A program made the position numbers and the translations under genes. 64,000 bases of DNA from Salinicola endophyticus (GTDB taxonomy: Bacteria > Pseudomonadota > Gammaproteobacteria > Pseudomonadales > Halomonadaceae): positions 2,046,001 to 2,110,000 of the forward strand of contig NZ_CP159578.1 of assembly GCF_040536835.1 (NCBI RefSeq), written 5' to 3'. Under the pieces are notes generated by a model, which worked only from the letters and a program-made list of their open reading frames with translations, did not search any database and was not told the origin of the DNA. Positions 3,789 through 41,027 of this stretch are shown here, piece by piece (the first letter of the stretch is position 1; each line of letters starts with the position of its first letter).

Positions 3789-3793
3789 TCGGC

Positions 3794-17957: not shown

Positions 17958-17970
17958 GCTCGGGGCGTCG

Positions 17971-18777: not shown

Positions 18778-18836
18778 GTGTCGGTCGTTTCCCTGACGGT
18801 GAAAAGGCGCTGCGTGCCGATCCTTCGGCATGACAG

Positions 18837-20617: not shown

Positions 20618-20629
20618 GGCGGTAGCGTG
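20618..20629 (+). promoter_or_regulatory. ops element (JUMPstart core) upstream of wza
   Basis: GGCGGTAGCGTG is identical to the E. coli ops core that pauses RNA polymerase and recruits RfaH, which suppresses termination in long polysaccharide operons. It sits between the sigma-54-like promoter and wza, on the transcribed strand and in the untranslated leader, as expected. RfaH control is inferred. Confidence 0.8.
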
Positions 20630-20857
20630 TTTAAATTTAAAGTTGTCGGCCCTGTGTTTTTGTTGACGTGTTGAGTCAATGCACTGATGTCACGCAAGCG
20701 GCGTCAGCAAATAGGGATTCAGGGGCAAGGAAAATGCTGCCGCGGGCAAGCGGCACCGAGCGACAGGGATGGTGCAATGGCAGAGGCGAGAGGGATGAGA
20801 CGCAAGCATCAAAGGGTGGGGTCGGCCGTAGTCTGGCCGCTGCGAGGCGGATCTTCG

Positions 20858-22024: not shown

Positions 22025-22462
22025 ATGTTCCAGCGCATTCTGGTGGTCTGTATCGGCAACGTTTGCCGCAGCCCGGTGGCAGCGGCGCTGCTGCGCCAAC
22101 GCTTCCCCGGGCGCCAGATCGAGTCCGCGGGGCTGGGCGCGCTGGTCGGCCAGGGCGTCGACCCGCGGGCCCGGCGGCTGGGCGAGCGCGACGGTCTGAG
22201 CCTCGAAGGCCACATCGCGCGTCAGCTCGATGGCGACATGCTCAAGGACGCCGAGCTGATCCTGGTCATGAGCGAGGGGCAGCGCCGCGCGATCGCCGAG
22301 CGCGAACCGGCGGCTTCGGGCAAGACCCTGCTGTTCGGGCGCTGGCTCGCCGAGCCCGAGATCCCCGATCCCTACCACAAGAGCGAGAGCGCCTTCGCGC
22401 ACGTCCATCGCCTGATGGTGAGCGCTGCCGACGGCTGGATCGGCAAGATGCCGGAACGATGA
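22025..22462 (+). CDS. wzb: Low-molecular-weight protein-tyrosine phosphatase
   Basis: 145 residues. The P-loop CIGNVCRS carries nucleophile C9 and R15, and the general acid Asp is in IPDPYHKS. It dephosphorylates the C-terminal tyrosine cluster of Wzc, which is needed for cycling of high-molecular-weight polymer export. It lies directly between wza and wzc, as in colanic acid and group 1 capsule loci. Confidence 0.95.
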   Translation: MFQRILVVCIGNVCRSPVAAALLRQRFPGRQIESAGLGALVGQGVDPRARRLGERDGLSLEGHIARQLDGDMLKDAELILVMSEGQRRAIAEREPAASGKTLLFGRWLAEPEIPDPYHKSESAFAHVHRLMVSAADGWIGKMPER

Positions 22463-22481
22463 AAGGATGCAAGGACCCACG

Positions 22482-24719
22482 ATGACTCACGCCTCGAACC
22501 CTCTGTCGGGAACTCAAGCCTCGACGCCCCCGGTGAGCGCGCCGCGCAGCCACGAAGAGATCGATATCCGGCGTCTGTTCGGGATTCTGGTCGATCACAA
22601 GAAGTGGGTGCTGGCGAGCGTCGCTGCCTTCGCCCTGCTGGGGCTGATTTATGTCAGCGTGGCGACCCCGATCTATCGCGCCGATGCGCTGGTGCAGATC
22701 GAGAGTTCGTCACCCGGTAACAATCCACTCAAGGAGGTCTCGACGCTGCTGGGCCAGGAGCCGCCGACGCTGTCGGAGATCGAGATCATCCAGTCGCGCA
22801 TGGTCCTGGGGCGTGCGGTCGATCTGCTCAACCTCGACATCTCCGTGGACCCGGTGACGCTGCCGGTGATCGGCGGGCTGCTCGAGCGCCAGCATGTCTC
22901 GCGGCCCGGCTTCGCCGCCGGCTGGCACTATGCCTTCAGCGGTGAGTCGATCGCGGTCAGCGAGATGCCGGTGTCCGATGCCTACGAGGGGCAGCCGTTC
23001 CGGCTGCGGGTGCTCGACAGCTATCGCTACCGCCTGTTCGATGCCGACGGCAATGACCTGGGCGAGGGCAAGCTGGGCGAGCTGAGCAACTTCGCCCATG
23101 GCGGCGTGGCGCTGCGGGTGACTTCGATCGACGCCGCTGCTGGCGCCACCTTCGAACTGCGCCACGGCTCGCATCTCGCCGCCATCAATGCCCTGCGCGG
23201 GCGCTTGGCGGTGGCCGAGGCGGGTAGCGAGACCGGGATCCTCAGCTGGAGCCTCACCGGCACCGATCCGCAGGAGACCGAGAAAACGCTCAACACCATC
23301 GCCGATATCTACTACTCGCAGAACGTTCAGCGCCAGTCCGAGGAGGCGCGCAAGAGCCTCGAATTCCTCGATGGCCAGGTGCCCAAGATCCGCGCTCAGG
23401 TCGATCGCGCGGAGGAGAAGCTCAATCGCTATCGTGAGTCCCAGGACAGTGTCGATCTGTCGCTGGAGACCAAGTCGGTGCTCGACCGTCTGGTCAATCT
23501 CGAAGCCCAGCTCAACGAGCTGGAGATGAACGAGGCCGAGATCGCCCAGCGCTTCACCAAGAGTCATCCGACCTATCAGGCGCTGCTTGAGAAGAAGGCC
23601 CAGCTCCAGCGTGAGCGAGCGAATCTCGATCAGCAGATCAAGGCGATGCCCAAGACCCAGCAGGAGATCCTGCGTCTCAAGCGCGATGCCGAGGTCAACA
23701 ACGAGATCTACGTGCAGCTGCTCAACAAGGTGCAGGAGACGCGCATCGCCGAAGCCAGCACCGTGGGTAACGTCCGCGTGCTCGACTCGGCCCAGGTCCA
23801 GGCGACTCCGGTGGCACCCAACAAGCCGCTGCTGCTGGCGGTGGCGGTGATCGTCGGCCTGATCGTCGGCGTCGCGGGGGTGTTCCTGCGTGCGCTCTTC
23901 CATCGGGGTATCGAGACCCAGGAGCAGATCGAGGAGACCGGGTTGGCAGTCTACGCGACGGTGCCGCTGTCGGACGAACAGCGCAAGCTCAATCGCCGCG
24001 AGCAGCGTGGCCGCCGTGGCACGCGGCGCGATCCGCGCCATCCGCGGGGACTGCTGTCGTTGCGCAATCCGGCCGACGTCTCGGTCGAGGCCCTGCGCGG
24101 CTTGCGTACCAGTCTGCACTTCGCGATGCTCGAAGCGAGCGATAACCGTCTGATGATCACCGGCCCCAGCCCCGGCGTGGGCAAGAGCTTCGTCAGTGTC
24201 AACCTGGCGGCGGTTTGCGCCCAGGCAGGGCAACGTGTGCTGCTGGTCGATGCCGATATGCGCAAGGGGCAGGTGCACAACGTTTTCGGCGCGACCTCGG
24301 AGTCAGGGCTGAGCGACGTGCTCGGAGGCCGGCTGGCGCTGGATGAGGTGATCCGCGGGGTGGACGAGTGCGAGGGGCTTAACTATGTGGCGCGGGGTAC
24401 GGCGCCGCCCAACCCCTCGGAGCTGCTGATGGGGCCGCGCTTCAGCGCGTTCCTCGCCGCAGCCAGTGAGCGCTTCGATCTGGTGATCGTCGACTCGCCG
24501 CCGATTCTGGCGGTCACCGACGCCGCGATCATCGGCAAGCAGGTCGGCACGTCGCTGATGCTGGTGCGCTTCGAGCGTAATCCGGTCAAGGAGCTCGAGC
24601 TGGCGATCGGTCGTCTGCGCACCGCCGGGGTCGAACCGCGCGGCGCCATCCTCAACGCGGTCGAGCGCAAGGCGGCAACCGCCTATGGCTACGGCTACTA
24701 CCACTACAACTATCAGTGA
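22482..24719 (+). CDS. wzc: Polysaccharide co-polymerase / bacterial tyrosine kinase
   Basis: 745 residues. The Wzz domain is bounded by membrane segments at about residues 39-60 and 448-470, with a long coiled coil between them. The cytoplasmic BY-kinase has Walker A GPSPGVGKS near 560, Walker A' LLVDADMRK near 587 and Walker B LVIVDSPPI near 666. The C terminus is a tyrosine cluster (YGYGYYHYNYQ) for autophosphorylation. It sets chain length and links synthesis to Wza. AAGGA lies 6 bases before the ATG at 22482; an upstream ATG at 22467 lacks spacing. Confidence 0.95.
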   Translation: MTHASNPLSGTQASTPPVSAPRSHEEIDIRRLFGILVDHKKWVLASVAAFALLGLIYVSVATPIYRADALVQIESSSPGNNPLKEVSTLLGQEPPTLSEIEIIQSRMVLGRAVDLLNLDISVDPVTLPVIGGLLERQHVSRPGFAAGWHYAFSGESIAVSEMPVSDAYEGQPFRLRVLDSYRYRLFDADGNDLGEGKLGELSNFAHGGVALRVTSIDAAAGATFELRHGSHLAAINALRGRLAVAEAGSETGILSWSLTGTDPQETEKTLNTIADIYYSQNVQRQSEEARKSLEFLDGQVPKIRAQVDRAEEKLNRYRESQDSVDLSLETKSVLDRLVNLEAQLNELEMNEAEIAQRFTKSHPTYQALLEKKAQLQRERANLDQQIKAMPKTQQEILRLKRDAEVNNEIYVQLLNKVQETRIAEASTVGNVRVLDSAQVQATPVAPNKPLLLAVAVIVGLIVGVAGVFLRALFHRGIETQEQIEETGLAVYATVPLSDEQRKLNRREQRGRRGTRRDPRHPRGLLSLRNPADVSVEALRGLRTSLHFAMLEASDNRLMITGPSPGVGKSFVSVNLAAVCAQAGQRVLLVDADMRKGQVHNVFGATSESGLSDVLGGRLALDEVIRGVDECEGLNYVARGTAPPNPSELLMGPRFSAFLAAASERFDLVIVDSPPILAVTDAAIIGKQVGTSLMLVRFERNPVKELELAIGRLRTAGVEPRGAILNAVERKAATAYGYGYYHYNYQ

Positions 24720-24813
24720 TCCCGCGAGCCGCCATGAAACCCACCACCGTCGACGCCGCCGGACCCCGGAGCCCGTCTCTTCCGGCGCGGACAAGGGCCG
24801 CGAGGGCATATCC

Positions 24814-26187
24814 ATGACGCCTGCATTCGCGGCGATCCGCACCCGGCTGCGCGGTGAACTCGTGGTCAACCTCTGCCGTACCTTCGCCGCACGCGGCGTG
24901 GCCGCCCTGGGCACGGTGATGCTCGGGGTGGTGCTGGGCCGGCTCTATGGGGCCCAGGGGGTGGGGCTGTTCGCGCTGGCGCAGAGCCTGATCTTCGGTG
25001 CCGGCATCATCGCCTGCTATGGCCTCAACGGCTCGCTGATGCGCTATGTCAGCCAGGACAGCGATAGCCCCAACGTGCGCTGCTATCTGCGCTGGGCGCT
25101 GCTTCGGGCACTCATGCTGAGTGTGCTCTTCGCCCTGGCGATCTGGCTGTTGCGTGCGCCGATCGCCAACGTCTTCGCCGCACCGACCCTGGGCGAGATG
25201 CTGCCGGCGATCGCCGTGGCCACGCCGGCCTTCACGCTGTCGTTCGTCCTCGCCGGTTTCCTCAAGGGGGTCAGCATGCCGGCGCGTGCCAGCCTGCAGG
25301 AGAATGGCGCCATCTCGCTGTGGGCGGCCATCGCCATTCTCGCGCTGGCGCTCGTCGGCGACACGCGCTCGCTGGTGCTGGCGAGCTGGGCCTTCTGCGC
25401 CGCCGCCTGGCTGGTCTTCGCCCAGGGCGCGCTGCACACCCTGCGCTGGTTGCGCCGGCACGCCGCAGCGGTCAGCGGTGCGCCGGATCCGGCCACACTG
25501 GCGAACAAGGGCGCCTTCTTCGCCACCGCCCAGAGCTTCATCATGCTCAATCTGTCGATGTTCCTGCAGCAGGTGCTGGGGATGTTCATCGCCGGGGCGC
25601 TGTTGAGCCACGTCGACCTGGGGCTGTTCAAGTCGGCGGAGCGCGTCGGCATGATCATCAGCTTCATTCTGCTGGTGATCAACGCGGTCTTCCCGCCGCG
25701 TTTCTCGCGCCTATACCACCAGGGCGACCACCGCGCGCTGGCGCGGCTGGCGCGTCAGAGTAGCCGCGTGGCCACGGCCATGGCGCTGCCGCTGGCGCTG
25801 CTCTGCCTGATCTTCCCTGCCTGGGTGCTGGGCTGGTTCGGGCCCGAATTCGGCGCCGCCGCGCCGCTGTTGCGGATCATCGCCCTAGGTCATCTGGTCA
25901 ACGTCGCAACCGGATCGGTGGCCTTTCTGCTGACCATGACCGGACGCGAGCGGCTGATGCGTAACATCTCACTGATCTGCGCCACCCTGGGACTGATTGC
26001 CTTTCTGGTCCTGATCCCGCTGCTGGGTGCGCTGGGGGCGGCGCTGTCGCTGGCGCTGGTGCTCTCGTTGCAGAACGCCGTCGCGGCATTCTTCGTCTGG
26101 CGCGACATGGGCATCGTCATGCTGCCGTTGCCGCTGCCCGGGCGTGCGGCGACCGCCGACACGCCGCGTCGCCACACCCATCCGTGA
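24814..26187 (+). CDS. wzx: Wzx-type polysaccharide flippase (MOP superfamily)
   Basis: 457 residues with about 12-14 membrane segments. It starts LRGELVVNLCRTFAARGVAALGTVMLGVVLGRLYGAQGVGLFALAQS, the usual start of oligosaccharide flippases (given here only as a region, residues 9-55). It moves the undecaprenyl-linked repeat unit across the inner membrane for Wzy. It lies just downstream of wzc. The open frame reaches back to 24685 inside wzc, but homology starts at the ATG at 24814. Exact substrate not visible. Confidence 0.88.
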   Translation: MTPAFAAIRTRLRGELVVNLCRTFAARGVAALGTVMLGVVLGRLYGAQGVGLFALAQSLIFGAGIIACYGLNGSLMRYVSQDSDSPNVRCYLRWALLRALMLSVLFALAIWLLRAPIANVFAAPTLGEMLPAIAVATPAFTLSFVLAGFLKGVSMPARASLQENGAISLWAAIAILALALVGDTRSLVLASWAFCAAAWLVFAQGALHTLRWLRRHAAAVSGAPDPATLANKGAFFATAQSFIMLNLSMFLQQVLGMFIAGALLSHVDLGLFKSAERVGMIISFILLVINAVFPPRFSRLYHQGDHRALARLARQSSRVATAMALPLALLCLIFPAWVLGWFGPEFGAAAPLLRIIALGHLVNVATGSVAFLLTMTGRERLMRNISLICATLGLIAFLVLIPLLGALGAALSLALVLSLQNAVAAFFVWRDMGIVMLPLPLPGRAATADTPRRHTHP

Positions 26188-26227: not shown

Positions 26228-27118
26228 ATGTGCCGATACCCACACGCGACAGGCAGGGCGCCGGAAACGCCCGTTACCTCGTCCGCCGGCGCCTCCGATA
26301 TCGCGACCCTGCCGCTGGCGGCGCTGCTGGAGGCGGTGCACGCGGCCGGCGAGCGGGTCATGGCGATCTATCGCGGCGACGCCGAGGTCACCTGGAAGAC
26401 CGACGACTCGCCGCTGACGGCGGCCGATCTGGCCGCCCATGAGGCGCTGGTGCAGGCGCTCGAACGGCTCACCCCGGGGTATCCGGTGGTTTCGGAAGAG
26501 GCCGCCGAAGCCACGTTCGAGACCCGTCGCGGCTGGCCGCGTTACTGGCTGATCGACCCGCTCGATGGCACCAAGGAGTTTCTCAAGCAAAACGGTGAGT
26601 TCACCCTCAACGTGGCGCTGATCGAGGCGGGGGTGCCGGTGTTCGGCATCGTCCACGCCCCGGCGCTGCCGGCCGGGCCCACCACCTGGTGGGGCGGCGA
26701 AGAGGGTGCCTTCAAGCAGATCGGGGCGGGCGTGGTCGAGCGCATCGGCGTGCGTGCGCTGCCCGACCCGGCGGCCGAGTCCTGGGTGGTGGTGGGCAGC
26801 CGCTCCCACGCCGCCGAGGCGCTCGAGGCCTTCTGCGCCGGGCTGCCGGCACATCGCCTCACCAGCCTCGGCAGCTCGCTCAAGCTCTGCCTGGTGGCGG
26901 AGGGGAGCGCCGATCTTTACCCGCGCCTGGCCCCGACCTGCGAGTGGGACACCGCCGCGGCCCAGGCGGTGGTGCTGGCGGCGGGGGGCGAGGTGCTCGA
27001 GGCCGAGACGCTGGCGCCGTTGCGCTGCACCCAGGGCGAGAGCTACGTCAATCCTGCCTTCATCGTCTGTGCGCAGCGCGATGAGCGCTGGGAAAGCGCG
27101 CTGCAGCGCGCACGCTGA
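26228..27118 (+). CDS. cysQ: 3'(2'),5'-bisphosphate nucleotidase (PAP phosphatase), locus copy
   Basis: 296 residues of the inositol-monophosphatase superfamily. Metal-site motifs are VSEEAA and [11 protein letters not shown], and the C-terminal [11 protein letters not shown] motif is intact. It hydrolyses PAP, the inhibitory by-product left when a sulfotransferase uses PAPS. It is placed between wzx and cysD inside the polysaccharide locus and ahead of a sulfotransferase, so it probably serves polymer sulfation. A second, distinct copy lies at 47166. AAGGAG lies upstream of the ATG at 26228; the longer open frame is a shadow of wzx. Confidence 0.92.
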
Positions 27119-27197
27119 CCGTGGCGCGTGCCGCCGCTCGCGATGTCGCGAGTGCCGGCTCGCGCGGATAGGGACATCAAACCGTACGGAACCCCTC

Positions 27198-28115
27198 ATG
27201 CTGGAAATCACACCGGAACGTCAAACCCACCTCAAGCAGCTCGAGGCGGAGTCGATTCACATCATCCGTGAGGTCGCGGCCGAGTTCCGCAACCCGGTGA
27301 TGCTCTACTCGATCGGCAAGGACTCCTCGGTGATGCTGCATCTGGCGCGCAAGGCGTTCTATCCGGGGACGCCGCCGTTTCCGCTGATGCACGTCAACAC
27401 CACCTGGAAGTTCAAGGAGATGATCGAGTTCCGCGACCGCATGGCGGCCAGCGTGGGCATGGAGCTGATCGAACACATCAACGAGGAGGGGCGCGCCGCC
27501 GGCATCAACCCCTTCGATCACGGTAGCGCCAAGTACACCGACATCATGAAGACCCAGTCGCTGAAGATGGCGCTGGACAAGTACGGCTTCGATGCTGCCT
27601 TTGGCGGCGCGCGGCGCGATGAAGAAGCGTCCCGGGCCAAGGAGCGTGTCTACTCCTTCCGTGACAAGCACCACCGCTGGGACCCCAAGAACCAGCGCCC
27701 GGAGCTGTGGCGGCTCTACAACGGCAAGGTCAACCAGGGCGAATCGATCCGCGTCTTCCCGCTCTCCAACTGGACCGAGCTGGATATCTGGCAGTACATC
27801 TACCTCGAATCGATCCCCATCGTGCCGCTCTATTTTGCCGCGCCGCGCCCGGTGGTCGAGCGTGACGGCATGCAGGTGATGGTCGACGACGAGCGCCTGC
27901 CGCTGGCACCGGGTGAAGTGCCGGAAGAGAAGTGGGTGCGTTTTCGCACCCTCGGCTGCTATCCGCTCACCGGGGCGGTGGAGTCGCGGGCGGCGACGCT
28001 GCCCGAGATCATCCAGGAGATGTTGCTGACCCGCACCAGCGAGCGCTCGGGCCGGGCCATCGACCGCGATCAGGCGGGGTCGATGGAGAAGAAGAAACGC
28101 GAGGGGTACTTCTAG
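27198..28115 (+). CDS. cysD: Sulfate adenylyltransferase small subunit
   Basis: 305 residues of the PAPS-reductase-like ATP pyrophosphatase family. The PP-loop is [11 protein letters not shown], and [15 protein letters not shown] is the CysD signature. With CysN it makes adenosine 5'-phosphosulfate from ATP and sulfate. The length is normal. It is separated from cysN by 165 bases holding an inserted palindromic repeat, which is unusual because cysD and cysN are usually adjacent. Confidence 0.96.
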
Positions 28116-28116
28116 C

Positions 28117-28254
28117 CGCTGGCGAAAACTCGCTGTGCTCGGCCAGACGGTGTTGAACATCGGCTCAAGCTGCTCATTTACACCCCGTAAACTCCGCGCT
28201 TTCGCCGCTGTTCGCCTTGTCTGGCCATCGCTCGCTGACTTTTCGCTCAGCGTC
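28117..28254. repeat. Dispersed palindromic intergenic repeat, copy 2
   Basis: About 138 bases between cysD and cysN. It has imperfect terminal inverted repeats (CGCTGGCGAAAA against TTTTCGCTCAGCG) and an inner pair GGCCAGAC / GTCTGGCC. It shares the identical 22-base core GCTCATTTACACCCCGTAAACT (28172-28193) with the copy at 15617-15792. As a strong RNA hairpin it could stabilise or attenuate the cysD-cysN transcript. Confidence 0.7.
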
Positions 28255-28280
28255 TGATTCTTGAATTTCGGGATTTCAAC

Positions 28281-29714
28281 ATGGCCCACCAGTCTTCGCT
28301 CATCGCCGACAATATCGAGCAGTACCTGCACGAGCACGAGAACAAGGACCTGCTGCGCTTCATCACCTGCGGCAGCGTCGATGACGGCAAGTCGACCCTG
28401 ATCGGGCGGCTGCTGCACGACTCCAAGATGATCTACGAAGATCAGCTCGCCGCCATCACCCGCGACTCCAAGACCAGCGGCACCACCGGTGACAAGGTCG
28501 ACCTGGCGCTGCTGGTCGACGGCCTGCAGTCGGAGCGCGAGCAGGGCATCACCATCGATGTCGCCTATCGCTTCTTCTCCACCGACAAGCGCAAGTTCAT
28601 CATCGCCGACACCCCGGGGCACGAGCAGTACACCCGCAACATGGCCACCGGTGCCTCCACCGCCAGCCTCGCGGTGATCCTGATCGATGCTCGCCACGGG
28701 GTGCAGACGCAGACCCGTCGGCACAGCTTCATCGCTGATCTGCTGGGTATCCAGCACCTGGTGATCGCGGTCAACAAGATGGATCTGGTCGACTACGCCG
28801 AAGCGCGCTTCGACGAGATCGTCGCCGAGTATCGCGCCTTCGCCGAGAAGCTCGACGCTCGCGATATCCGCTTCGTGCCGCTCTCGGCGCTGGAGGGCGA
28901 CAACGTCGTCAACCCCAGCGAGCAGATGGAGTGGTACACGGGCCCTGCACTGCTCGACCTGCTGGAGACGGTCGAGATCGCGCACGATGCCAACCTCTCT
29001 GATCTGCGTCTGCCGGTGCAGTACGTCAACCGCCCGCACCTCGACTTCCGCGGCTACTGCGGCACGCTCGAAGCCGGGATCCTGCGCCCCGGTCAGGCGG
29101 TCAAGGCGCTGCCCTCGGGCAAGCGCTCGCGGGTGGCGCGTATCGTCACCTTCGACGGTGACCTCGAAGAGGCGTACCCCGGGCAGGCGGTGACGGTGAC
29201 CCTGGAAGACGAGATCGACCTCTCCCGCGGTGACTGGCTGGTGGCGGCGGATGCCGAGGTGACCCAGGCCAGCGCGCTGGAGGCCGACATCGTGTGGATG
29301 CACGAGAACGCCCTCGAACCCGGACGGCTCTACGACTTCAAGCTGGGTACCCAGGAAGTGGCCGGGCGGGTGGCCGAGATCGAATACCAGATCGACGTCA
29401 ACAGCCTGGCGCAGCTGCCGGCGGAGCAGCTGGCGCTCAACGCCATCGGGCGCTGCCGGGTGGAGCTGACCGCGAGCGTGCCGCTGGACGACTACCGGCG
29501 CAGCCCGGGGACCGGCAGCTTCGTGGTGATCGACCGGCTGAGCAACGTCACCGTGGGCGCGGGGCTGATCCGCGGCGCGGCGGCGGGCCGCGAGGCGAGC
29601 GGCGAGGTCGACTGGAAGGCCTTCGAGGTCGAGTTCAACGCGCTGATCCGCAAGCACTTCCCGCACTGGGAAGCGAAGGATTTGCGCACCGTGCTGCGCG
29701 GCATCGGCGACTGA
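28281..29714 (+). CDS. cysN: Sulfate adenylyltransferase GTPase subunit
   Basis: 477 residues, an EF-Tu-like GTPase. G1 is GSVDDGKST (31-39), then [13 protein letters not shown] (G3) and NKMDLVDY (G4), followed by beta-barrel domains II and III. GTP hydrolysis drives APS synthesis by CysD. No APS kinase domain is fused; that step is given by cysC at 36888 in the same locus. The gene is followed directly by the sulfotransferase. Confidence 0.96.
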
Positions 29715-29823
29715 CCCGCGCCGCGACACAGCCCAACCCCACCGCCATGCCAAGCCTCCGGCGCGTCGCCCGACGCCGCCGGGGCGCCTCGATTCACTGC
29801 GATCACTCATCGACGGGAGTGCC

Positions 29824-30555
29824 ATGAGCCTGCTGATACAGACCCGCTATCGCCTGAAAAAGAGCCCCCTGGCCAAATCCTTGATCCTGGGTATCAACGA
29901 CCGCCTGCCGCTGGAGGTGAAGGATCGCCTCTATCGTCACCTGGTCGACCCCTATTCGGAGCAGGAGGAGAACAACGACGTGGTCTTCGTGCATGTGCCC
30001 AAGACCGCCGGCAACAGTATTTTCCAGGCGCTGTTCGGAGTGCCGGCCCACGGCCACGATCCGGCCGAGCGCTATCGCCGCTTCGATGCCGAGCGCTTCG
30101 CGCGCTACTACAAGTTCGGCTTCGTGCGCCATCCGCTGGATCGCCTGGTCTCCGCCTACGTCTACCTCGAGAAGGGCGGTATCGGGCGCTACGACCGCGC
30201 TTTCCGTGACAAGTATCTGCGCGGCGTCTCCGGTTTCGATGATTTTCTGCGCCGGCTGGCGTCGCGGCCGCGCTATCGCCGCCGGGTGATGCGCTGGGTC
30301 CACTTCCGGCCCCAGGCCGAGTTCCTGTGCGACGCCCAGGGCCAGCCGCTGGTCGACTATGTCGGGCGCTACGAGAACATCGATGCCGACTATCGGCGTA
30401 TCGCCGCCGATCTGCGCATCAGTCGCGTGGCGCCGCTGGCGGTGGTCAACGCCACTGCACGCCGGGACTATCGCGATTACTACGACAGCGAGCTTACCGC
30501 GATCGCCTCACGCCTCTACCGGCGCGATTTCGAGATCTTCGGCTACACGCCCTGA
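29824..30555 (+). CDS. Sulfotransferase (PAPS-dependent, carbohydrate type)
   Basis: 243 residues. The 5'-phosphosulfate-binding loop is FVHVPKTAGNSI (55-66) and the 3'-phosphate site is VRHPLDRLVSAY (101-112) with R102 and S110, as in the carbohydrate sulfotransferase 2 family. It transfers sulfate from PAPS to a sugar hydroxyl. No signal peptide or membrane segment is seen, so it probably acts in the cytoplasm on the lipid-linked repeat unit. Flanked by cysN and wzy, it is the key link between the sulfate-activation genes and the polymer. Confidence 0.9.
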   Translation: MSLLIQTRYRLKKSPLAKSLILGINDRLPLEVKDRLYRHLVDPYSEQEENNDVVFVHVPKTAGNSIFQALFGVPAHGHDPAERYRRFDAERFARYYKFGFVRHPLDRLVSAYVYLEKGGIGRYDRAFRDKYLRGVSGFDDFLRRLASRPRYRRRVMRWVHFRPQAEFLCDAQGQPLVDYVGRYENIDADYRRIAADLRISRVAPLAVVNATARRDYRDYYDSELTAIASRLYRRDFEIFGYTP

Positions 30556-30562
30556 GCGCCGC

Positions 30563-31753
30563 ATGACCCTTTCGTACTCATGGACCCGAGACATGCTGGT
30601 CATCGATGCCAAGCGCGTTTTCGTGGCGCTGGTGGCGATCTTCGCCATCGCGCTGCCCAAGTCGGGTGTCGCCCTCGGCGGCATTCCGCTCAATACCATC
30701 TATCTGCTGATCGTGGTGGCGTTCCCGATCCTGTTCCTCAAGGCGATGCTGGGGAGTGGCAAGCTCTTTCGCCAGGATCGCTACGCCTGCTACGTGTGGC
30801 TGCTGGTGCCGTTCTGGCTGCTGTTTCTGGCGGTCACGCTGCTCAACGGTATCGCCAACGTGGGCATCTACTTCGGCTACGTGATGGCGCTGATCGTGGT
30901 GCCGATCTTCGTCTACGTCTGGTCGAAACGCCTGGGGCCAGAGCATATCGCCTATCTGCTCGTCTGCCTGCGCCACTGCATCCGTTTCGCTATCGTCTTC
31001 GGCCTGGCGCTGTTCCTCTACAAGATCGCCACCGGCCAGTACTTCTCGATCCCCATGCTGACCACCACTTATGGGGCCGAGCTGACGCTGGAGGCGAAGA
31101 TGAACGACCGCGGCGGCCTGTTCAAGCTCTTCTCGACCTACAACAACGGCAATATCTACGCTGTGTGCATGATCATGCTGCTGCCGCTCTACAGCGTGAT
31201 CGAGACCCGCCGCCTGTGGGTGCTGGGGCTGATGCTGACGATCATGCTGACGCTGTCACGCACCGCCTGGGCGCTGCTGCTGGTCTACTGCATCTTCGAA
31301 TATCTGCTCTTCAACCGTGCCATCTCGGTCAAGAAGCTGATCCTGATCTGCTTCGCGCTGTGCCTGGTGGTGCCGGGCATCGTCGGTCTGCTGGGACTGA
31401 TGGGGCGCGACGTGACCTTTCTGTTCGACAGCGATCTGGGGGGACGCGCGGGATACCTGCAGTACTTCTTCGACGCCGGTCTGATCTCGCACACGCCGCT
31501 CTACTGGTCCTACGAGATTCCCTACGTCTCGATCGCCGAATTCGTGGGGCTGATCGGCCTGCTGCCGTTTCTCTTGTTCTTCGCCAACGTAGTGATGGCA
31601 CGCAGCCTGTTCGACCCCTCGCGTCCCGTGAGTCGCGGTGCCTGCATCGGCTGCGTCATGTACTGGGTAGCCACCTTCTCCGATGCGGCGCTGGTACTGG
31701 TGCCGACCTTCCTCATCTTTTCTTTGCTGGTAATGCTCTCCTTCAGCGAGTGA
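30563..31753 (+). CDS. wzy: Wzy-like O-antigen/exopolysaccharide polymerase
   Basis: 396 residues, very hydrophobic with about 10-12 membrane segments, a large periplasmic loop in the middle (KMNDRGGLFKLFSTYNNGN region) and a second loop with GGRAGYLQYFF. This layout fits O-antigen ligase/polymerase family members. It would join flipped repeat units at the periplasmic face. Sequence conservation in this family is low, so the call rests on topology and position between the sulfotransferase and GT4 genes. The ATG at 30563 is seven bases after the sulfotransferase stop. Confidence 0.78.
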   Translation: MTLSYSWTRDMLVIDAKRVFVALVAIFAIALPKSGVALGGIPLNTIYLLIVVAFPILFLKAMLGSGKLFRQDRYACYVWLLVPFWLLFLAVTLLNGIANVGIYFGYVMALIVVPIFVYVWSKRLGPEHIAYLLVCLRHCIRFAIVFGLALFLYKIATGQYFSIPMLTTTYGAELTLEAKMNDRGGLFKLFSTYNNGNIYAVCMIMLLPLYSVIETRRLWVLGLMLTIMLTLSRTAWALLLVYCIFEYLLFNRAISVKKLILICFALCLVVPGIVGLLGLMGRDVTFLFDSDLGGRAGYLQYFFDAGLISHTPLYWSYEIPYVSIAEFVGLIGLLPFLLFFANVVMARSLFDPSRPVSRGACIGCVMYWVATFSDAALVLVPTFLIFSLLVMLSFSE

Positions 31754-31757
31754 TCCC

Positions 31758-32817
31758 ATGAAAATCATGCATGTATGCGAGACGGTGACGGGCGGCATCG
31801 CCACCTATCTCAACAATGTCGCGGGCGAGCAGTTGCGCCATCCCGATGTCAGCGGGGTCTCTGTGGTGCTACCGGCGGCACAGCGTGAGGAGCTCGCGCT
31901 GGGGACGGCGGTGCGCATCCACGACTTTCCCGGCGAGAGTCGGCTGCACCGCCTGCGCCACCTGGCCACGCGGCTGTCGGCGGCGGTGGCGGCAGAGAGG
32001 CCGGACGTGGTCCATGTCCACAGCACCTTCGCCGGACTCGTCTGCCGCGGGCTGCCGCTGTCGCTGGGCGGGGCCAAGCTGGTCTACCAGCCCCACGGGG
32101 TGGCCTTCGACCCGCATCGGGTCGGCGGGCTCAAGCGCCGCGCGATCCAGTGGGTGGAGCGCGCACTCTATGCGCGCAGCGATGCGCTGGTGGCCATCTC
32201 CGAATACGAGCAGACGCTGCTGAACGCCGCGGGCATGGGCGAGCGCACGCTGCTGATCAAGAACTGCGTGCGCGACACCCGTGAACCGCGTATCGGCGCC
32301 GACAAGGAGGGTTTCTACCTGTTCATCGGACGCTTCGATCGTCAGAAGGGTTTCGATCGTCTCTATGCCAGCTGGGGCGAGTCGCATGGGGAGCTGCGGG
32401 TGGTCGGCGGCAGCGTGGTGGATGCCGGTACGGCGTTCGCCCCCAAGGCGAACATGCACCTGCTCGGCTGGCTCGACAATGCCAGCCTCGATAGCCTGAT
32501 CGCCCGGGCCAAGGCGCTGATCGTGCCCAGCCGCTGGGAGGGATTCGGCCTCGTGGTCCTCGAGGCCTACCGTAACGCGACCCCGGTGATCTGCTCCAAC
32601 CGCGGTGCGCTGCCGGAGCTGGTGCGCGATGGCGAGACCGGCCAGGTGTTCGATTTCGACGATTTCACGCCGTCGCTGGATGCCGCCCTGGCGCGCTTCG
32701 AGGCGAGCGACCGCGAGGCCATGGGGCGTCGCTGCCGGGAGCGCTACGAGCGTGAATTCTCGCCCGCCAGCATGAATGCGGCGCTTCTCAAACTCTACCG
32801 CTCGAGCGAGCACTGCT

Positions 32818-32825
<8 letters not shown>
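31758..32825 (+). CDS. Glycosyltransferase family 4
   Basis: 355 residues with a GT-B fold. The N-terminal half starts MKIMHVCETVTGGIATY, with the acceptor-side loop GGIATYL and HVHSTFAG. The donor half has FIGRFDRQKGFD and the nucleotide-sugar motif PSRWEGFGLVVLEA. It adds one sugar to the lipid-linked unit in the cytoplasm. It is the only ordinary glycosyltransferase in the locus, and its stop overlaps the next start by 8 bases. Donor sugar not predictable from this. Confidence 0.9.
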
Positions 32826-34879
<2,054 letters not shown>

Positions 34880-34880
<1 letters not shown>

Positions 34881-35443
34881 TGGCAGGGGGCGACTATGGC
34901 GATGTGCGCAGCGGCATCGAGCTCGTGCTGTTCGATGTCGATGGCGTGCTCACCGACGGCACGCTGCTGATCGGTCCCGAGGGCGAGGCACTCAAGCCGT
35001 TCAACGTCCGCGACGGCGTGGCGGTGGGGCTGCTGCGCCAGCACGGGATCAAGAGCGGGGTGCTCTCGGCCAAGTCGAGCCAGCCGCTGCTCACCCGCGC
35101 CACTCAGCTGGGGATGGACGTGGTCAAGCTCGGCTTCAGTCGCAAGCTGGAGGCGATCGCCCAGATCAGCGCCGAGTGGCAGATTCCGCCGGCGCGCATC
35201 GCCTTCGCCGGTGACGACATCATCGATATTCCGGTGATGCGCCGGGTCGGGGTCGCCTATGCGCCGGCGGATGCCCATCCGCTGGTGCGCGAGGTCGCCA
35301 CGCAGGTGACCGCCAGTCGCGGCGGCCGCGGTGTGGCGCGCGAGATCGCCGAGGATCTGCTCGCGGCCCGGGGGCTGAGCCTGGCCGAGATGTACGCCCA
35401 TCTGCTCGAGGACGATGACGCGCTGGGCGATCTGGTGCAGTAG
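34880..35443 (+). CDS. kdsC: 3-deoxy-D-manno-octulosonate 8-phosphate phosphatase
   Basis: 187 residues, a HAD phosphatase without cap. Motif I LFDVDGVLTDG carries both aspartates; SAKSSQ is motif II and FAGDDIIDIPVM is motif IV. It removes phosphate from Kdo 8-phosphate. The start is one base inside the kdsA stop. A 458-base gap follows before kdsD. Confidence 0.95.
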
Positions 35444-35901
35444 TCGATCGGTCACATCTAGCATCTACGACCAGCATCCCCGTTCCATCGACCCCGTGCC
35501 CCCCACGGCGCCAGGTGCCAACGGGGGCCGGACAGGCCACCGCCCAGCGCCCGCTGGCGGTGGCAGCGCCAAGCCAATGCCGAATGGATCGAGCCACTCG
35601 GGCCCGCCTAAAAACGGCGTTTCTCTAACGTTTTCATCGGGTATCGCCACCAGGGCAACAGGGCCAAGCCCCTGCGCCAGCCACGGCATACCCCCGCGCT
35701 GATCCCGCGCTATCCGGTACTCACTCAGTCATCACTCAGCACGACCCCGCGCTACCCCAACAGACGCCGGCACCGGCGCGGCGTGCCTTGCCCGATTCCG
35801 GGGCGGGTGCGCCGCTGCGCGGCCGGGCGTCTCTGACGCGGGTTACCCATCGGTCATGCAGTCGCTCATGAGACACATTCAGGAGACACATGGAGGTCCC
35901 T
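35444..35901. other. Gap between kdsC and kdsD, possible gene remnant
   Basis: 458 bases without an intact gene inside an otherwise tightly packed operon. One frame (about 35525-35610) reads ARWRWQRQANAEWIEPLGP then stop, which resembles the N-terminal region of RimJ-type acetyltransferases; past the stop nothing convincing remains. The last 60 bases hold the kdsD ribosome-binding site. A decayed gene is possible but weakly supported. Confidence 0.35.
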
Positions 35902-36834
35902 ATGAATCTCACCTATCTCGATACCGCCCGGCAGGTCTTCGCCAAGGAAGCCGAATCCCTGCTCGAAGTCTCGCGCAAGCTCGACAACGACCTGATCTCC
36001 GCGGTCGACGCCATCCTGCGCACGCCGGGTCGGGTGGTGGTGTGCGGTATGGGCAAGTCCGGCATCGTCGGACGCAAGATCGCCGCCACTCTTGCCAGCA
36101 CCGGTACGCCGAGCTTCTTCATGCATCCGGGGGAGGCCTACCACGGCGACCTGGGCATGGTCACCGAGCACGACGTCTTCCTGGCCATCTCCAACTCCGG
36201 TGAGACCGAGGAGGTGGTCAAGCTGATCCCGTTCCTCAAGGACAACGGCAACTATCTGGTGGGGCTGACCGGCAGCCCCGGCTCGACCCTGGCACAGGCG
36301 GCGCACAGCCATCTCGACATCGGCGTGCTGGAGGAGGCGTGCCCGCTGCAGCTGGCGCCGACCTCCTCGACCACGGCCACGCTGGCGATGGGCGACGCGT
36401 TGGCGGTGACGTTGATGAAGGCGCGCGACTTCCAGCCCGAGAACTTCGCCCGCTTTCACCCCGGGGGCTCGCTCGGGCGGCGTCTGCTGAGCCGGGTCGA
36501 GCACGAGATGCGCAGCGACAACCTTCCGCTGGTGGAGGCCGACGCCCAGGTACTCGACGTGATCCAGGCGATGTCGCGGGGCCAGCTCGGCATGGCCGTG
36601 GTCCGCCACGGCGAGCGCTGGGGAATCATCACCGATGGCGATCTGCGCCGGGCGATCGAGAAGTACGGCGAGCGCGTGTTCACCCGCCGGGCGTTCGACT
36701 TCATGACCCCACAGGCGTCGCGGATTGCGCCCACTGCCCGGGTCGAGGATGCACTGGCGCTGATGGACAGCAAGCAGATCAGTGTGCTGCTGGTGTTCGA
36801 TCACGAGCGCCTGGTCGGTGTGTTCAAGAAATGA
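35902..36834 (+). CDS. kdsD: Arabinose 5-phosphate isomerase
   Basis: 310 residues of the KdsD/KpsF/GutQ family. The SIS domain (about 35-180) has [28 protein letters not shown] sequence, then [12 protein letters not shown] and [10 protein letters not shown]. Two CBS domains follow (about 205-310). It converts ribulose 5-phosphate to arabinose 5-phosphate, the first step to Kdo. GGAGG six bases upstream fixes the ATG at 35902. Its presence in a capsule-type locus recalls kpsF of E. coli group 2 capsules. Confidence 0.94.
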
Positions 36835-36887
36835 GGGAGGCGGGAGTGCAGGGCAAGGCAGTGCAAGGCAAAGAAGAAGGAGCGTGC

Positions 36888-37484
36888 ATGAGCGACAACA
36901 CCGTCTGGCATGCCCACCGTGTGGACCGGGAGCAGCGCGAGGCGCTCAACGCTCAGCGCGCCTGCCTGCTCTGGTTCACCGGACTGAGCGGCTCCGGCAA
37001 GTCGACCATCGCCGGGCTGGTCGAGGAGCGGCTGCATCAGCTTGGCAAGCTGACCTATCTGCTCGACGGCGACAACGTACGCCAGGGGCTGAACGGCGAC
37101 CTCGGCTTCTCCGACGCCGATCGGGTCGAGAACGTGCGGCGTATCGGCGAGCTGTCCGGGCTGTTCGTGGATGCCGGGGTGATCACGCTGTCAGCGTTCA
37201 TCTCGCCGTTTCGCAGCGAGCGGGCCGCGGTGCGCCGGCGGCTGGCGGCGGGGGACTTCATCGAGGTATTCGTCGATGCCCCGCTGGCGACCTGCGAGGC
37301 ACGCGATCCCAAGGGGCTCTACCGGCGCGCACGGGCCGGCGAGATCGCTGACTTCACCGGCATCGATTCGCCCTATGAGCCGCCCCAGGCGCCCGAGGTG
37401 CATCTGCACAACGACGGCAGCCGCTCGCCGGCGGCGATGGCGCAGCAGGTGGTGGATTACCTCGCGGACCGGCGCTGCGTATGA
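36888..37484 (+). CDS. cysC: Adenylylsulfate (APS) kinase
   Basis: 198 residues. The P-loop [10 protein letters not shown] lies at 31-40, [20 protein letters not shown] is the APS-binding segment (about 64-83), and [11 protein letters not shown] carries the phospho-acceptor serine. [14 protein letters not shown] is also typical. It phosphorylates APS to PAPS, the sulfate donor. With cysDN, cysQ and the sulfotransferase it completes polymer sulfation supply inside this one locus. AAGAAGGAG precedes the ATG. Confidence 0.96.
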
Positions 37485-37596: not shown

Positions 37597-38958
37597 ATGA
37601 AAAGCCTGAATCCGGTCCGGCGCCTGGCGCCGCTGATGGATGTAATGGCCATAGTGCTGGCGGGCGTGCTGGCCAGCGAGGTGCGTTTCGGCAGTGCGCG
37701 GCTCGACAGCGGCAACGCCCTGGTGCTGGTGCTGGTGGCGCTGGCGGTGGTGCTGATCAATCTGTTCGGCGGCGGCTACAGCAAGTGGCGCTCGACCCGG
37801 CTGCGCAGCCGTATCTACCGGCTGCTGTGGGTGTGGGCGGCGGTGTTCGCGGTGCTCGCCAGCCTGCTCTATCTGTTCAAGCTCTCCGAGAGCGTGTCGC
37901 GGCAGTGGCTGGTGTTCACCTTCCTGCTGTCGTTCTGCCTGGTGTGTGCGTCGCGGGCGCTGCTGATGATGCTGACGCTCTATCACAACGCCAGCGCCAA
38001 GAACCGGCGCAAGGTGTTCCTGGTCGGCCCCGAGGAGAACCTGCTCGATGTGGCACGCTCGCTGCGCCGCCACCGCGAGCAGGGCTATGCGCTCGCCGGT
38101 ATCTGCCGCGCGCGGGTACTGCGCAGTCAGCAGACGCCGCGCCATCTGGCCCAGCGGGTGGAGAAGTCGGGCGCCGACGAGGTGTGGATCTGCCTGCCGG
38201 TCTCGGAAGGCGCCCACGTCAAGGCGATCATGTACAACCTGCGCCATCTGCCGCTGGAGATTCGCTTCATCCCGCACTTCGCCGATATCCCGCTGCTCAA
38301 TCATCGGGTCAGCCAGGTCGCCGGCAATCACGCCTTCGATCTCAGCGTCAGCCCCATCGCCGGCAGCGCGCAGTGGGCCAAACGCCTGGAAGACATCGTG
38401 ATCGGCGGGTTGATTCTGCTGTTGATCGCGCCGGTGTGCCTGGCCTGCGCATTGGCGGTGAAGCTGTCGTCTCCGGGGCCGGTGCTGTTCAAGCAGCTGC
38501 GCACCGGGGCCAACGGCCACGATGTCCAGGTCTACAAGTTCCGCTCGATGAAGGTCCACCAGGAGTCCGCCGGCCATATCTCCCAGGCGACCCGGCGCGA
38601 TCCGCGCATCACGCGGGTCGGCGCCTTCCTGCGCCGGACCTCGCTGGACGAGCTGCCCCAGTTCATCAATGTGCTGCAGGGGCGCATGTCGATCGTCGGG
38701 CCGCGTCCGCACGCCCTGGCGCACAACGACTACTACAAGGATCTGGTCGAGTCCTACATGCAGCGGCACATGGTCAAGCCGGGCATCACCGGCTGGGCCC
38801 AGGTGTGCGGCTATCGCGGTGAGACCGACACCCTGGACAAGATGCAGCGCCGGGTCGAGCACGATCTCTGGTACATCAACAACTGGTCGCTGCTGCTGGA
38901 CCTCAAGATCATCTTCCTCACCGTCTTCAAGGGCTTCACCGGTCAGAACGCCTACTGA
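37597..38958 (+). CDS. wcaJ: Undecaprenyl-phosphate hexose-1-phosphate transferase (WcaJ type)
   Basis: 453 residues. The N-terminal half has four membrane segments and a CoA-binding-like domain (KVFLVGPEENLLDVARSL). The C-terminal transferase core starts with a membrane hairpin (GGLILLLIAPVCLACALAV) and has YKFRSMKV, RTSLDELPQFINVL and MSIVGPRPHA. It loads the first sugar phosphate, typically glucose 1-phosphate, on undecaprenyl phosphate at the inner membrane and so starts each repeat unit. The long N-terminal part marks it as the WcaJ/WbaP class. Confidence 0.92.
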   Translation: MKSLNPVRRLAPLMDVMAIVLAGVLASEVRFGSARLDSGNALVLVLVALAVVLINLFGGGYSKWRSTRLRSRIYRLLWVWAAVFAVLASLLYLFKLSESVSRQWLVFTFLLSFCLVCASRALLMMLTLYHNASAKNRRKVFLVGPEENLLDVARSLRRHREQGYALAGICRARVLRSQQTPRHLAQRVEKSGADEVWICLPVSEGAHVKAIMYNLRHLPLEIRFIPHFADIPLLNHRVSQVAGNHAFDLSVSPIAGSAQWAKRLEDIVIGGLILLLIAPVCLACALAVKLSSPGPVLFKQLRTGANGHDVQVYKFRSMKVHQESAGHISQATRRDPRITRVGAFLRRTSLDELPQFINVLQGRMSIVGPRPHALAHNDYYKDLVESYMQRHMVKPGITGWAQVCGYRGETDTLDKMQRRVEHDLWYINNWSLLLDLKIIFLTVFKGFTGQNAY

Positions 38959-39005: not shown

Positions 39006-41027
39006 TTGGCTAGACACTCAAGCTACCTGTACGAGATTCAGGGCTTGCGCGCGGTGGCGGCGCTCATGGTCGCCGTCTATCACATCTGGATCCAGAAGGT
39101 CTCCGGCGGCGTCGATGTGTTCTTCGTCGTCGCCGCCTTCTTCATCGTCGGTTCGCTGACCCGCGGCGGGCCACCCACGCTGGGCGGACTGTTCGACTAC
39201 TACGCCAAGACCCTGCGCCGGGTGGTGCCGAGCGCGGCGGTGGTGATCGTGACCACGGTGGCGCTGTCGCTGTGGTTGATGCCGGATTCGATGTGGCGCA
39301 ATCAGATCAAGCACGCCCTGGCTTCGACGCTGTTCGTCGAGAACTGGGCGCTGGCTTTCACCGCCACCGACTATCTGCAGCAGGGCTCGCCGCCGTCGCC
39401 GTTCCAGCAGCTGTGGGCGCTGGCGGTGCAGGTGCAGTTCTACTGCCTGTTCCCGCTGCTGCTGTGGGCGGCGGGCCGCGTCGGCCGGCGTGACCAGCAC
39501 GGCTATCGCCGACGGGTGATCGTCGCGCTGGCACTGATCGGGCTGCTGTCGCTGAGTTACAGCGTCTACATGACCGCGCGCAACCAGCCCTGGGCCTACT
39601 TCGATAGCGGTGCGCGGGCCTGGGAGTTCGCCATCGGCGGCTTGCTCGCCTTCGCGGTGACGCGGATGACGCTGTCGCGTTTGGCGGCGAAGCTGCTCGG
39701 CTGGGTGTCGCTGGCGGTCCTGCTCACCTTTGCACTGTTTCTCGAGGTGTCGTCATCGTTCCCCGGGGTGGTGGCGCTGATTCCGGTGCTGGCGGCCTGC
39801 GGCATCATTATCGCGGCGCGCAACCAGTGCGACATCTGGCTGCTCAACAACCGCGGCGTGGTGTGGTTCGGTGATCTCTCGTTCGCGTTCTATCTGTGGC
39901 ACTGGCCGCTGCTCTCCTGCTATCGCTATGCCACCGGCGGCTTCGATGTCGGGCTGCTGCCGGGGCTGGCGATCATCGGCGGCGCCGCGCTGCTGGCGGG
40001 CTTGACCACCTGGGGGTTCGAGAACTCCGTACGCCGTTCGGCGTGGCTGTCGCGGCACAGGTTCGCCACCTATGCGGCCTGCGCTGCGCTGCTTGCATTG
40101 CCGATGGCGGCCCTGGGCGGCTGGTATCATGACTACCAGGGGCGCCGCGCCAGCGCCGAGGCGGCACTCGATCAGTTCCTGCATCACGCCCGGCCGGCAG
40201 AGGCGACGGTCTATCCGCCGACCTTGATTGCCAGCATGGATCTGCCGCCGTCGTCCCGGGATGGTTGCCATCAGACCGCGACGGATGCCGAGCTGGTGGA
40301 GTGCAGCTACGGTGACCCTGACGCCGACAAGACAGTGGTGCTGGCCGGCGGCTCCCATGCCCAGCAGTGGCTGGCGGCGCTGCAGCGAGTGGCGGCGCGT
40401 GAGCGCTTCCGTCTGGTCACCCTGACCAAGGGGGGCTGCATGCTCTCCCTCGACGCCGATGCCGATTACATGGCGTATCCCTCCTGCCACGCCTGGAACG
40501 AGCGGGTGATCGAGCGCATCCGCCAGATCCAGCCCGACTATGTGTTCACCAACTCGACCCGTGGGCAGGGCGCGGCGGAGCATGTGCCAGAGGGCTACCT
40601 GGCGGCGTGGCGCGCGCTGGCCGAAGGCGGCGTGCGGGTGCTGGCACTGCGCGACAATCCCTGGTTCGGTTTCGACGTGCCCGAGTGTGTCGATCTGCAC
40701 AAGGATGCCCCGGATGCCTGCGCCAAGCCGCGGGATGCGCTGCTCAGTCGGCGCTCGCCCACCGCTGATTATCACCTCGGCAACGTCTACTTTGCGGACA
40801 TCAGCGATCTGTTCTGCGATGAGCGCCTGTGTCGGCCCCGGCAGGGGAAGGTGCTGCTCTACCGCGACGACCATCACATCACCAATACCTTTTCGCAGCT
40901 GGCGGCGCCGCGTATCGCCCGTACCCTAGCGCGAGCAGAAGCCGCGTTCGCCGCGGCGGACGCGGGTCACTGGATCGCCGGTGCGCCCCAGGGCGCTAAA
41001 CCCGTCATACCGAGGAAGGGGTCATGA
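39006..41027 (+). CDS. Acyltransferase-3 family protein with C-terminal SGNH domain
   Basis: 673 residues. The N-terminal acyltransferase-3 domain has about ten membrane segments and begins EIQGLRAVAALMVAVYH with its conserved H. A periplasmic SGNH-like domain covers about 430-650: block I is VLAGGSHAQQW (GGSH in place of the common GDSH) and the terminal D-x-x-H region is RDDHHITN. Such proteins acetylate or otherwise acylate surface polysaccharides. The start is TTG at 39006, fixed by AAGGAG at 38994-38999 and by homology beginning right there. It overlaps a small Tat-signal ORF by ATGA. Confidence 0.9.
   Translation: MARHSSYLYEIQGLRAVAALMVAVYHIWIQKVSGGVDVFFVVAAFFIVGSLTRGGPPTLGGLFDYYAKTLRRVVPSAAVVIVTTVALSLWLMPDSMWRNQIKHALASTLFVENWALAFTATDYLQQGSPPSPFQQLWALAVQVQFYCLFPLLLWAAGRVGRRDQHGYRRRVIVALALIGLLSLSYSVYMTARNQPWAYFDSGARAWEFAIGGLLAFAVTRMTLSRLAAKLLGWVSLAVLLTFALFLEVSSSFPGVVALIPVLAACGIIIAARNQCDIWLLNNRGVVWFGDLSFAFYLWHWPLLSCYRYATGGFDVGLLPGLAIIGGAALLAGLTTWGFENSVRRSAWLSRHRFATYAACAALLALPMAALGGWYHDYQGRRASAEAALDQFLHHARPAEATVYPPTLIASMDLPPSSRDGCHQTATDAELVECSYGDPDADKTVVLAGGSHAQQWLAALQRVAARERFRLVTLTKGGCMLSLDADADYMAYPSCHAWNERVIERIRQIQPDYVFTNSTRGQGAAEHVPEGYLAAWRALAEGGVRVLALRDNPWFGFDVPECVDLHKDAPDACAKPRDALLSRRSPTADYHLGNVYFADISDLFCDERLCRPRQGKVLLYRDDHHITNTFSQLAAPRIARTLARAEAAFAAADAGHWIAGAPQGAKPVIPRKGS

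Follow-up and report, generated by a model that had tools for sequence, protein, structure and literature searches.

A probable sulfated-polysaccharide locus of the Wzx/Wzy type in Salinicola, with Kdo genes and an optional sulfation cassette

A question raised by sulfate-activation genes that sit inside a polysaccharide locus is what they serve; namely, whether they supply sulfate to the polymer made there or feed the cell in general. The effect of sulfate on a bacterial polysaccharide is hard to isolate, as the polymers usually differ in all else. We investigated one such locus in a 64,000-nucleotide stretch of DNA (referred to here as the window; positions 2046001–2110000 of the 4,319,187-base, single-contig genome of Salinicola endophyticus, contig NZ_CP159578.1, genome G000). 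A first-pass annotation had described cysD, cysN, cysC, cysQ and a sulfotransferase gene interleaved with wzx, wzy and a glycosyltransferase gene. Pfam and NCBIfam profile matches, evaluated against their cut-offs, bear this out: the set is intact at 26228–37484, bounded by the start codon of cysQ and the stop codon of cysC, behind wza, wzb and wzc. The same span holds four genes related to 3-deoxy-D-manno-oct-2-ulosonic acid (Kdo) that had been overlooked, kdoT, kdsA, kdsC and kdsD. We consider it likely that the locus makes a capsule or exopolysaccharide by the Wzx/Wzy route, from a repeat unit in which beta-Kdo is probably present and to which an optional cassette adds sulfate. The evidence comprises the identities and arrangement of the genes, a comparison of orthologous loci that have the cassette with others that lack it, homogenization of cysN and the predicted folds of two key enzymes.

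The genes lie on the + strand in the order wza, wzb, wzc, wzx, cysQ, cysD, cysN, sulfotransferase gene, wzy, GT4-family glycosyltransferase gene, kdoT, kdsA, kdsC, kdsD, cysC, initiating phosphoglycosyl transferase (PGT) gene and AT3-SGNH acyltransferase gene. Gaps are shorter than 80 bases except between cysD and cysN (165), cysN and the sulfotransferase gene (109), kdsC and kdsD (446) and cysC and the PGT gene (112). The two subunits of ATP sulfurylase are encoded by cysD (27198–28115, small subunit; TIGR02039, 526.7 bits, cut-off 396.6) and cysN (28281–29714, GTPase subunit; TIGR02034, 657.7, cut-off 336.1), the latter with no fused adenosine 5′-phosphosulfate (APS) kinase domain. The APS kinase gene cysC stands apart from the other sulfation genes at 36888–37484 (TIGR00455, 250.6, cut-off 138.7). 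The first gene of the set, cysQ (26228–27118), encodes a 3′(2′),5′-bisphosphate nucleotidase for removal of 3′-phosphoadenosine 5′-phosphate (PAP); it exceeds the cut-off of TIGR01331 (258.6 against 228.8) and falls below that of a second CysQ model, PRK10931 (236.9 against 379).

The sulfotransferase gene (29824–30555) matches the Sulfotransfer_2 family, which depends on 3′-phosphoadenosine 5′-phosphosulfate (PAPS), at 72 bits (PF03567, cut-off 22); it has no NCBIfam match. Its product contains His78 and the motifs HVPKTAGNS and FVRHPLDRLVSAY, which we take to be the 5′-phosphosulfate and 3′-phosphate binding motifs, and has no predicted membrane segment. Residues K60, G63, R102 and S110 are invariant in 34 aligned sequences, the models and alignments being built from 33 of 120 listed matches (220 found). 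A second-look structural aligner indicates that the predicted fold is shared with heparan sulfate sulfotransferases. A scan of genome contigs with the protein returned 10 loci, of which 3 are from Salinicola or strain MFB021 and 7 are distant relatives (30–34% identity).

The Kdo genes stand between the GT4-enzyme gene and cysC. The product of kdoT (32818–34035; PF05159) is predicted to be a retaining beta-Kdo transferase: its modelled GT-B fold is nearest to those of WbbB, KpsC and KrkA (12–21% identity in structural alignments), Asp256 is invariant in 51 sequences (models and alignments built from 50 of 105 matches), and in a HMMER alignment the Asp256 motif falls at, or within one residue of, the Asp232 motif of WbbB. 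It is followed by genes for Kdo-8-phosphate synthase (kdsA, 34035–34880, profile match), a KdsC-type Kdo-8-phosphate phosphatase (34880–35443; above the cut-off of TIGR01670, below that of the equivalog PRK09484) and a KdsD/KpsF-type arabinose-5-phosphate isomerase (35890–36834; above the cut-off of TIGR00393, below that of the KdsD equivalog PRK10892).

Wza, Wzb, Wzc, Wzx and the PGT are encoded together, as in Wzx/Wzy-type systems. They are the outer-membrane export protein Wza (20687–22021; Poly_export, SLBB and Wza_C), the low-molecular-weight tyrosine phosphatase Wzb (22025–22462; LMWPc), the tyrosine autokinase and chain-length protein Wzc (22467–24719; Wzz, GNVR and WZC_N), the flippase Wzx (24685–26187; Polysacc_synt and MatE, with an approximate start codon, as the open reading frame overlaps wzc) and the PGT (37597–38958; Bac_transf and CoA_binding_3). 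The polymerase gene wzy (30563–31753) is predicted from hydrophobicity, position and a sub-threshold Wzy_C match. The GT4-family enzyme is encoded at 31758–32825 and the AT3-SGNH acyltransferase, with a probable role in O-acylation of the polymer, at 39006–41027.

We infer the substrate, the sulfated position, the order of the steps and the polymer as follows. CysDN and CysC would make PAPS in the cytoplasm, where the PGT, the GT4 enzyme and the Kdo transferase would build an undecaprenyl-linked repeat unit. The soluble sulfotransferase would move sulfate from PAPS onto that unit and CysQ would clear the resulting PAP. By analogy with the known pathway, sulfation would precede flipping by Wzx, because PAPS is made in the cytoplasm and the sulfotransferase has no membrane segment; Wzy would then join the units outside. 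The three transferases at the locus (PGT, GT4 and KdoT) suggest a repeat unit with roughly three sugars, Kdo among them, to which transferases encoded elsewhere could add more.

Is the cassette a fixed part of this locus? Orthologues of kdoT (at least 80% identity) occur in 13 of 18 genomes of the genus, among which S. tamaricis F01 is denoted G189, S. endophyticus CPA92 G177 and MFB021 G187, and in all 13 loci the genes for the GT4 enzyme, kdsA, kdsC, kdsD and the PGT lie beside kdoT. Relatives of the sulfotransferase were found in 8 of these 13 genomes and in none of the 5 without kdoT. Six genomes have one sulfotransferase each (type A, 72–100% identity), and two (G176 and G182) have two each (type B, 36–39% identity). 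Each of the eight loci has cysN, sulfotransferase and cysC, with cysC at its separate position. We saw cysQ within the locus in five of them (G000, G189, G183, G175 and G187) and cysD in six, once as an end only; in the other genomes cysD or cysN is cut off by the end of the contig. The other five loci (G173, G178, G181, G186 and G188) have no match to cysQ, cysD, cysN, the sulfotransferase gene or cysC at E ≤ 1 × 10−8; there, wzy comes straight after wzx, and the PGT gene straight after kdsD. Related Salinicola species with one locus, with or without sulfation genes, therefore offer paired natural material from a single genus, and a natural test of the role of sulfate in such a polymer.

In a tree of seven locus proteins, the type B genome G176 falls within the unsulfated group, with support of 100 both for that group overall and for the grouping of G176 with G173, G181 and G188, which argues that the sulfation cassette has been gained or lost more than once. 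The kdoT of G176 is 99.5% identical to that of unsulfated G188. Its wzy is only 71.5% identical to that of G188, and groups with that of the other type B genome, G182, at support 100; the cysC tree and the position of the G176 PGT are weakly supported. The sulfotransferases and wzy thus seem to have moved as one stretch into a backbone near-identical to that of an unsulfated sister, on the basis of a single event that may reflect simple linkage. We tentatively propose, as an idea that we think has somewhat less than an even chance of being correct, that the cassette together with wzy behaves as a capsule allele that can be exchanged, in which sulfate is added to a lipid-linked, Kdo-containing unit before flipping, each Wzy is matched to a sulfation pattern, and lineages switch between unsulfated, one-enzyme and two-enzyme versions of one backbone through joint swaps of sulfotransferase and polymerase.

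A gene for a 371-residue membrane acyltransferase-like protein (L101:18170–19285 in one case) follows the PGT gene in all five unsulfated loci. None was found in the stretches fetched for seven of the eight sulfated loci; at the remaining one, in G183, a 62% relative is cut by the end of the fetched stretch. We considered a simple trade of sulfate for an extra acyltransferase, and that relative weakens it.

The origin of the activation genes bears on whether they are dedicated to the polymer. The genome search for a second cysDN or cysC that the first-pass annotation advised returned a housekeeping cysDN pair at 2916321 and a fused cysNC at 2457405 with a cysD at 2459335, giving three cysD genes in total. 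Over aligned stretches, the local genes are 98.8% (cysD) and 97.6% (cysN) identical in DNA to the housekeeping pair. Both full cysN copies were obtained from three genomes only (G000, G189 and G183). At four-fold degenerate sites the two copies agree at 93.3% within G000 and 99.6% within G189, compared with 84.0–84.9% in four between-genome comparisons; seven other locus genes agree at 85.1–92.9% between G000 and G189. The two cysN copies of G183 agree at 96.7%, and similarity between the locus copies of G183 and G000 is 84.8%. The simplest account of this pattern for cysN is gene conversion. The rival account, that the near-identical pairs are separate recent duplications in each species with no gene conversion, draws support from the small number of genomes with both full copies and from cysD, for which comparisons made among G000, G187 and G189 lie at 97.7–98.8% with no within-genome excess (at four-fold sites, 96.6–98.7% in all six comparisons for G000 and G189). 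In these closest species the cysD data do not discriminate between conversion and duplication. In G183 and G175, however, cysD does show the pattern (97.1% within, 89–92% between), and the G000 and G189 locus copies occupy the same place between orthologous neighbours, yet their cysN genes each resemble the housekeeping copy of their own genome; we therefore regard independent duplication as improbable. A further observation from G183 concerns a cysD beside another cysN–cysC pair (L113), which groups with that genome's other cysD copies. Because the adjoining cysN is only 74% identical to that of the window, this suggests patchwise conversion.

The description of the locus as one dedicated module accordingly stands in part. 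The sulfotransferase, cysN and cysC genes are linked, being all present in eight or all absent from five of the 13 loci, but the local cysDN pair is 97–99% identical in DNA to the housekeeping pair, with which its cysN evolves in concert, and is therefore not a specialized enzyme. The near-identical cysDN copies also call for caution with draft assemblies, which are interrupted at just such loci: of the eight sulfated ones, four run out within or next to cysDN, and that of MFB021 makes a fifth, being divided at this point. In the F01 assembly, PGT, wzx and wzc matches come in overlapping pieces (L094, ~2828–4184 and 16648–19070), a pattern expected from frame breaks or assembly errors. At the G183 locus an extra small open reading frame lies between cysD and cysN (L095, ~13560–14110) that resembles S23/four-helix-bundle proteins by eye. 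In the window, the space between these genes is occupied by a 165-base dispersed intergenic repeat (28116–28280, + strand) directly after the cysD stop codon. It has no counterpart between cysD and cysN in the G000 housekeeping pair or in S. tamaricis; a 79% relative lies at the same place after cysD in the housekeeping copy of G175. As the repeat has at least 40 matches in the genome, including itself (40 of 114 candidates scored), we set aside the idea that it is a functional element.

If the local genes are so close to the housekeeping pair, the cassette might instead feed the cell in general, through sulfur assimilation or the PAPS level, its place in a polysaccharide locus being incidental. 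The genome has two APS kinases, the local CysC and the fused CysNC; the 18 kb examined around the housekeeping cysDN pair contain no match to cysC. The one cysH-like gene (L006:1441–2061, minus strand; genome 1745140–1745760) scores 121.8 bits with the PAPS-reductase model and 61 with the APS-reductase model, both below cut-off, so that the two kinases encoded in polysaccharide loci may supply assimilation. An effect of PAPS, as a signal, on exopolysaccharide expression is also reported for Vibrio vulnificus (PMC6113621).

A survey of 275 genomes of the family speaks to this. A clear APS kinase (E below 1 × 10−40) is present in 150, with only a weak match (E of 3 × 10−5 to 1 × 10−3) in 36 more; by the search program's own count, 179 genomes exceed the family cut-off. 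All 24 genomes with a relative of the sulfotransferase have a clear APS kinase, compared with 126 of the other 251. APS kinase also tracks extra cysD copies: where there are at least two cysD matches it is clear in 111 of 113 genomes, and where there is one, in 37 of 158 (4 genomes with no cysD match were dropped, and some of the extra matches are gene fragments). CysH of the G000 type occurs at high score in 227 genomes (7 weaker matches left out); a clear APS kinase is missing from 98 of these, including 72 that lack even a weak match, although cysD is present in 271 of the 275, and this type of CysH therefore seems not to need PAPS. The 30 best-scoring CysH sequences that were fetched (L158–L187), 6 of them from genomes with no clear APS kinase, all have two cysteines and no CC pair. 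Iron–sulfur APS reductases differ from such proteins, and this CysH may reduce APS directly as an iron–sulfur-free enzyme, in which case APS kinase in the family would serve sulfation. The family models, which favour PAPS reductase, run counter to this. Given these counts and the absence of cysC from all five loci with no sulfotransferase, we judge general supply to have a low probability, comparable to that of independent duplication.

Least probable is that the sulfotransferase acts on another target, such as the lipopolysaccharide core or a lipid carrier, with the Kdo genes belonging to lipopolysaccharide: the single-copy kdsA presumably also serves lipopolysaccharide, but the sulfotransferase gene lies 7 bases before wzy inside the wzx-to-AT3 run, the two genomes with sulfotransferase pairs carry wzy genes of a separate clade, and KdoT resembles capsule-linker and O-antigen enzymes, which are not known to act on the lipopolysaccharide core.

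Several observations weigh against a sulfated, Kdo-containing Wzx/Wzy polymer. The family match of wzy is weak (Wzy_C, 20.1 bits against a cut-off of 31.7), for a strongly hydrophobic 396-residue protein at the expected place. Foldseek alone returned no match to the sulfotransferase at E ≤ 0.001, and the fold assignment comes from the second-look aligner; the margin of the heparan sulfate sulfotransferase fold over the SULT family is small, and this nearest fold leaves the acceptor unfixed. The kds genes may mainly serve lipopolysaccharide, as kdsA is single-copy in the genome and kdsA–kdsC also occur in five genomes of the genus that lack kdoT; for these reasons we dropped the idea of an extra Kdo set for this polymer alone. 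The survey counts ignore relatedness among genomes. As an observation in its own right, the only kdsA found in the genome sits inside a variable polysaccharide locus, so that lipopolysaccharide Kdo presumably depends on it.

Upstream of wza by about 70 bases is an element, GGCGGTAGCGTG (20618–20629, + strand), which we take to be ops-like, and thus a possible recruitment site for RfaH on the long operon. Within the window the 11-mer GGCGGTAGCGT stands at both 20618 and 46362, so it is position and conservation that carry weight. The core pattern GGCGGTAG was found near the wza start in four of five relatives (G173, G188, G186 and G178) and not near wza in G181, the wza starts in these relatives being approximate. 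A sigma-70 promoter scan gave 1 site against 2.6 expected, and Rfam at gathering thresholds gave tRNA only. Divergent yjbH and gfcC-like genes adjoin the locus (15816–18906, minus strand), followed by a yjbF match (18837–19514). Beyond them, the gene at 14057–15532 combines an Ada metal-binding domain with AraC-type DNA-binding domains and the N-terminal domain of AlkA; a gene for a methylguanine methyltransferase adjoins it.

Elsewhere in this genome is an ABC-type capsule locus that also carries sulfation genes (L008, 2450000–2469000), in which cysNC and the third cysD lie among genes for an ATP-binding cassette (ABC) transporter ATPase, an ABC-2 membrane protein, a Poly_export protein, two Capsule_synth proteins and a polyketide synthase. 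L008 has no cysQ match, and the genome has no second PF03567 match above cut-off. A sub-threshold PF03567 match (18.4 bits, cut-off 22) at 2441025–2441150, in a 631-codon open frame ~9 kb from L008, may mark its sulfotransferase.

How does the window locus compare with known systems? We found no published account of such a Salinicola locus in a search of open-licence papers. In rhizobial nodPQ and nodH, too, sulfate-activation genes are duplicated and associated with a sulfotransferase that acts on carbohydrate, but what is modified is a lipo-oligosaccharide signal, not a polymer. The predicted KdoT fold resembles the retaining beta-Kdo transferases WbbB (GT99), which caps O antigen, KpsC (GT107), which builds the Kdo linker of group 2 capsules, and KrkA (GT140), which makes the Escherichia coli K13 repeat, as set out in the sections of PMC12887879 drawn on here; at 12–21% identity the likeness is distant. 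In the same family (Halomonadaceae), the capsule cluster of Cobetia marina KMM 1449 has cysNC, cysD, cysQ and a sulfotransferase gene, with Kdo and sulfate noted in Cobetia polymers; in the cluster description of PMC11766843, export is by an ABC transporter (kps), cysNC is fused and the repeat is L-rhamnose-2-sulfate. The window locus is instead Wzx/Wzy-type; its cysN and cysC are separate genes, and its repeat-unit genes include one that resembles those for Kdo transferases. It is L008, with its ABC transporter and fused cysNC, that resembles the Cobetia arrangement (section 2.4 of that paper), except for cysQ. The first-pass statement that little is described of the genes behind the sulfate was therefore overstated, as the Cobetia cluster was published in 2025. 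In Vibrio sp. KMM 8419, second copies of cysC, cysN and cysD accompany sulfotransferases in a polysaccharide cluster, a gene set that its authors call a hallmark of sulfated polysaccharide synthesis; according to the relevant passages of PMC11641403, that cluster has ABC-type export, lacks wzy and yields rhamnose-3-sulfate. The synechan (xss) locus of Synechocystis PCC 6803 is Wzx/Wzy-dependent and yields a sulfated exopolysaccharide, but is cyanobacterial, and the main text of PMC8205485 does not mention PAPS, cysC or cysD; a text search for Kdo gave no hit. With PAPS genes beside sulfotransferases in polysaccharide loci already in print (PMC11766843, PMC11641403, in the parts cited), and a sulfated Wzx/Wzy polymer too (PMC8205485, main text), the Salinicola locus is a variant of a known theme. 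Within a single Wzx/Wzy system it combines sulfation with an enzyme of the Kdo-transferase type, and what is new here is the Kdo part and the on/off distribution of the sulfation genes.

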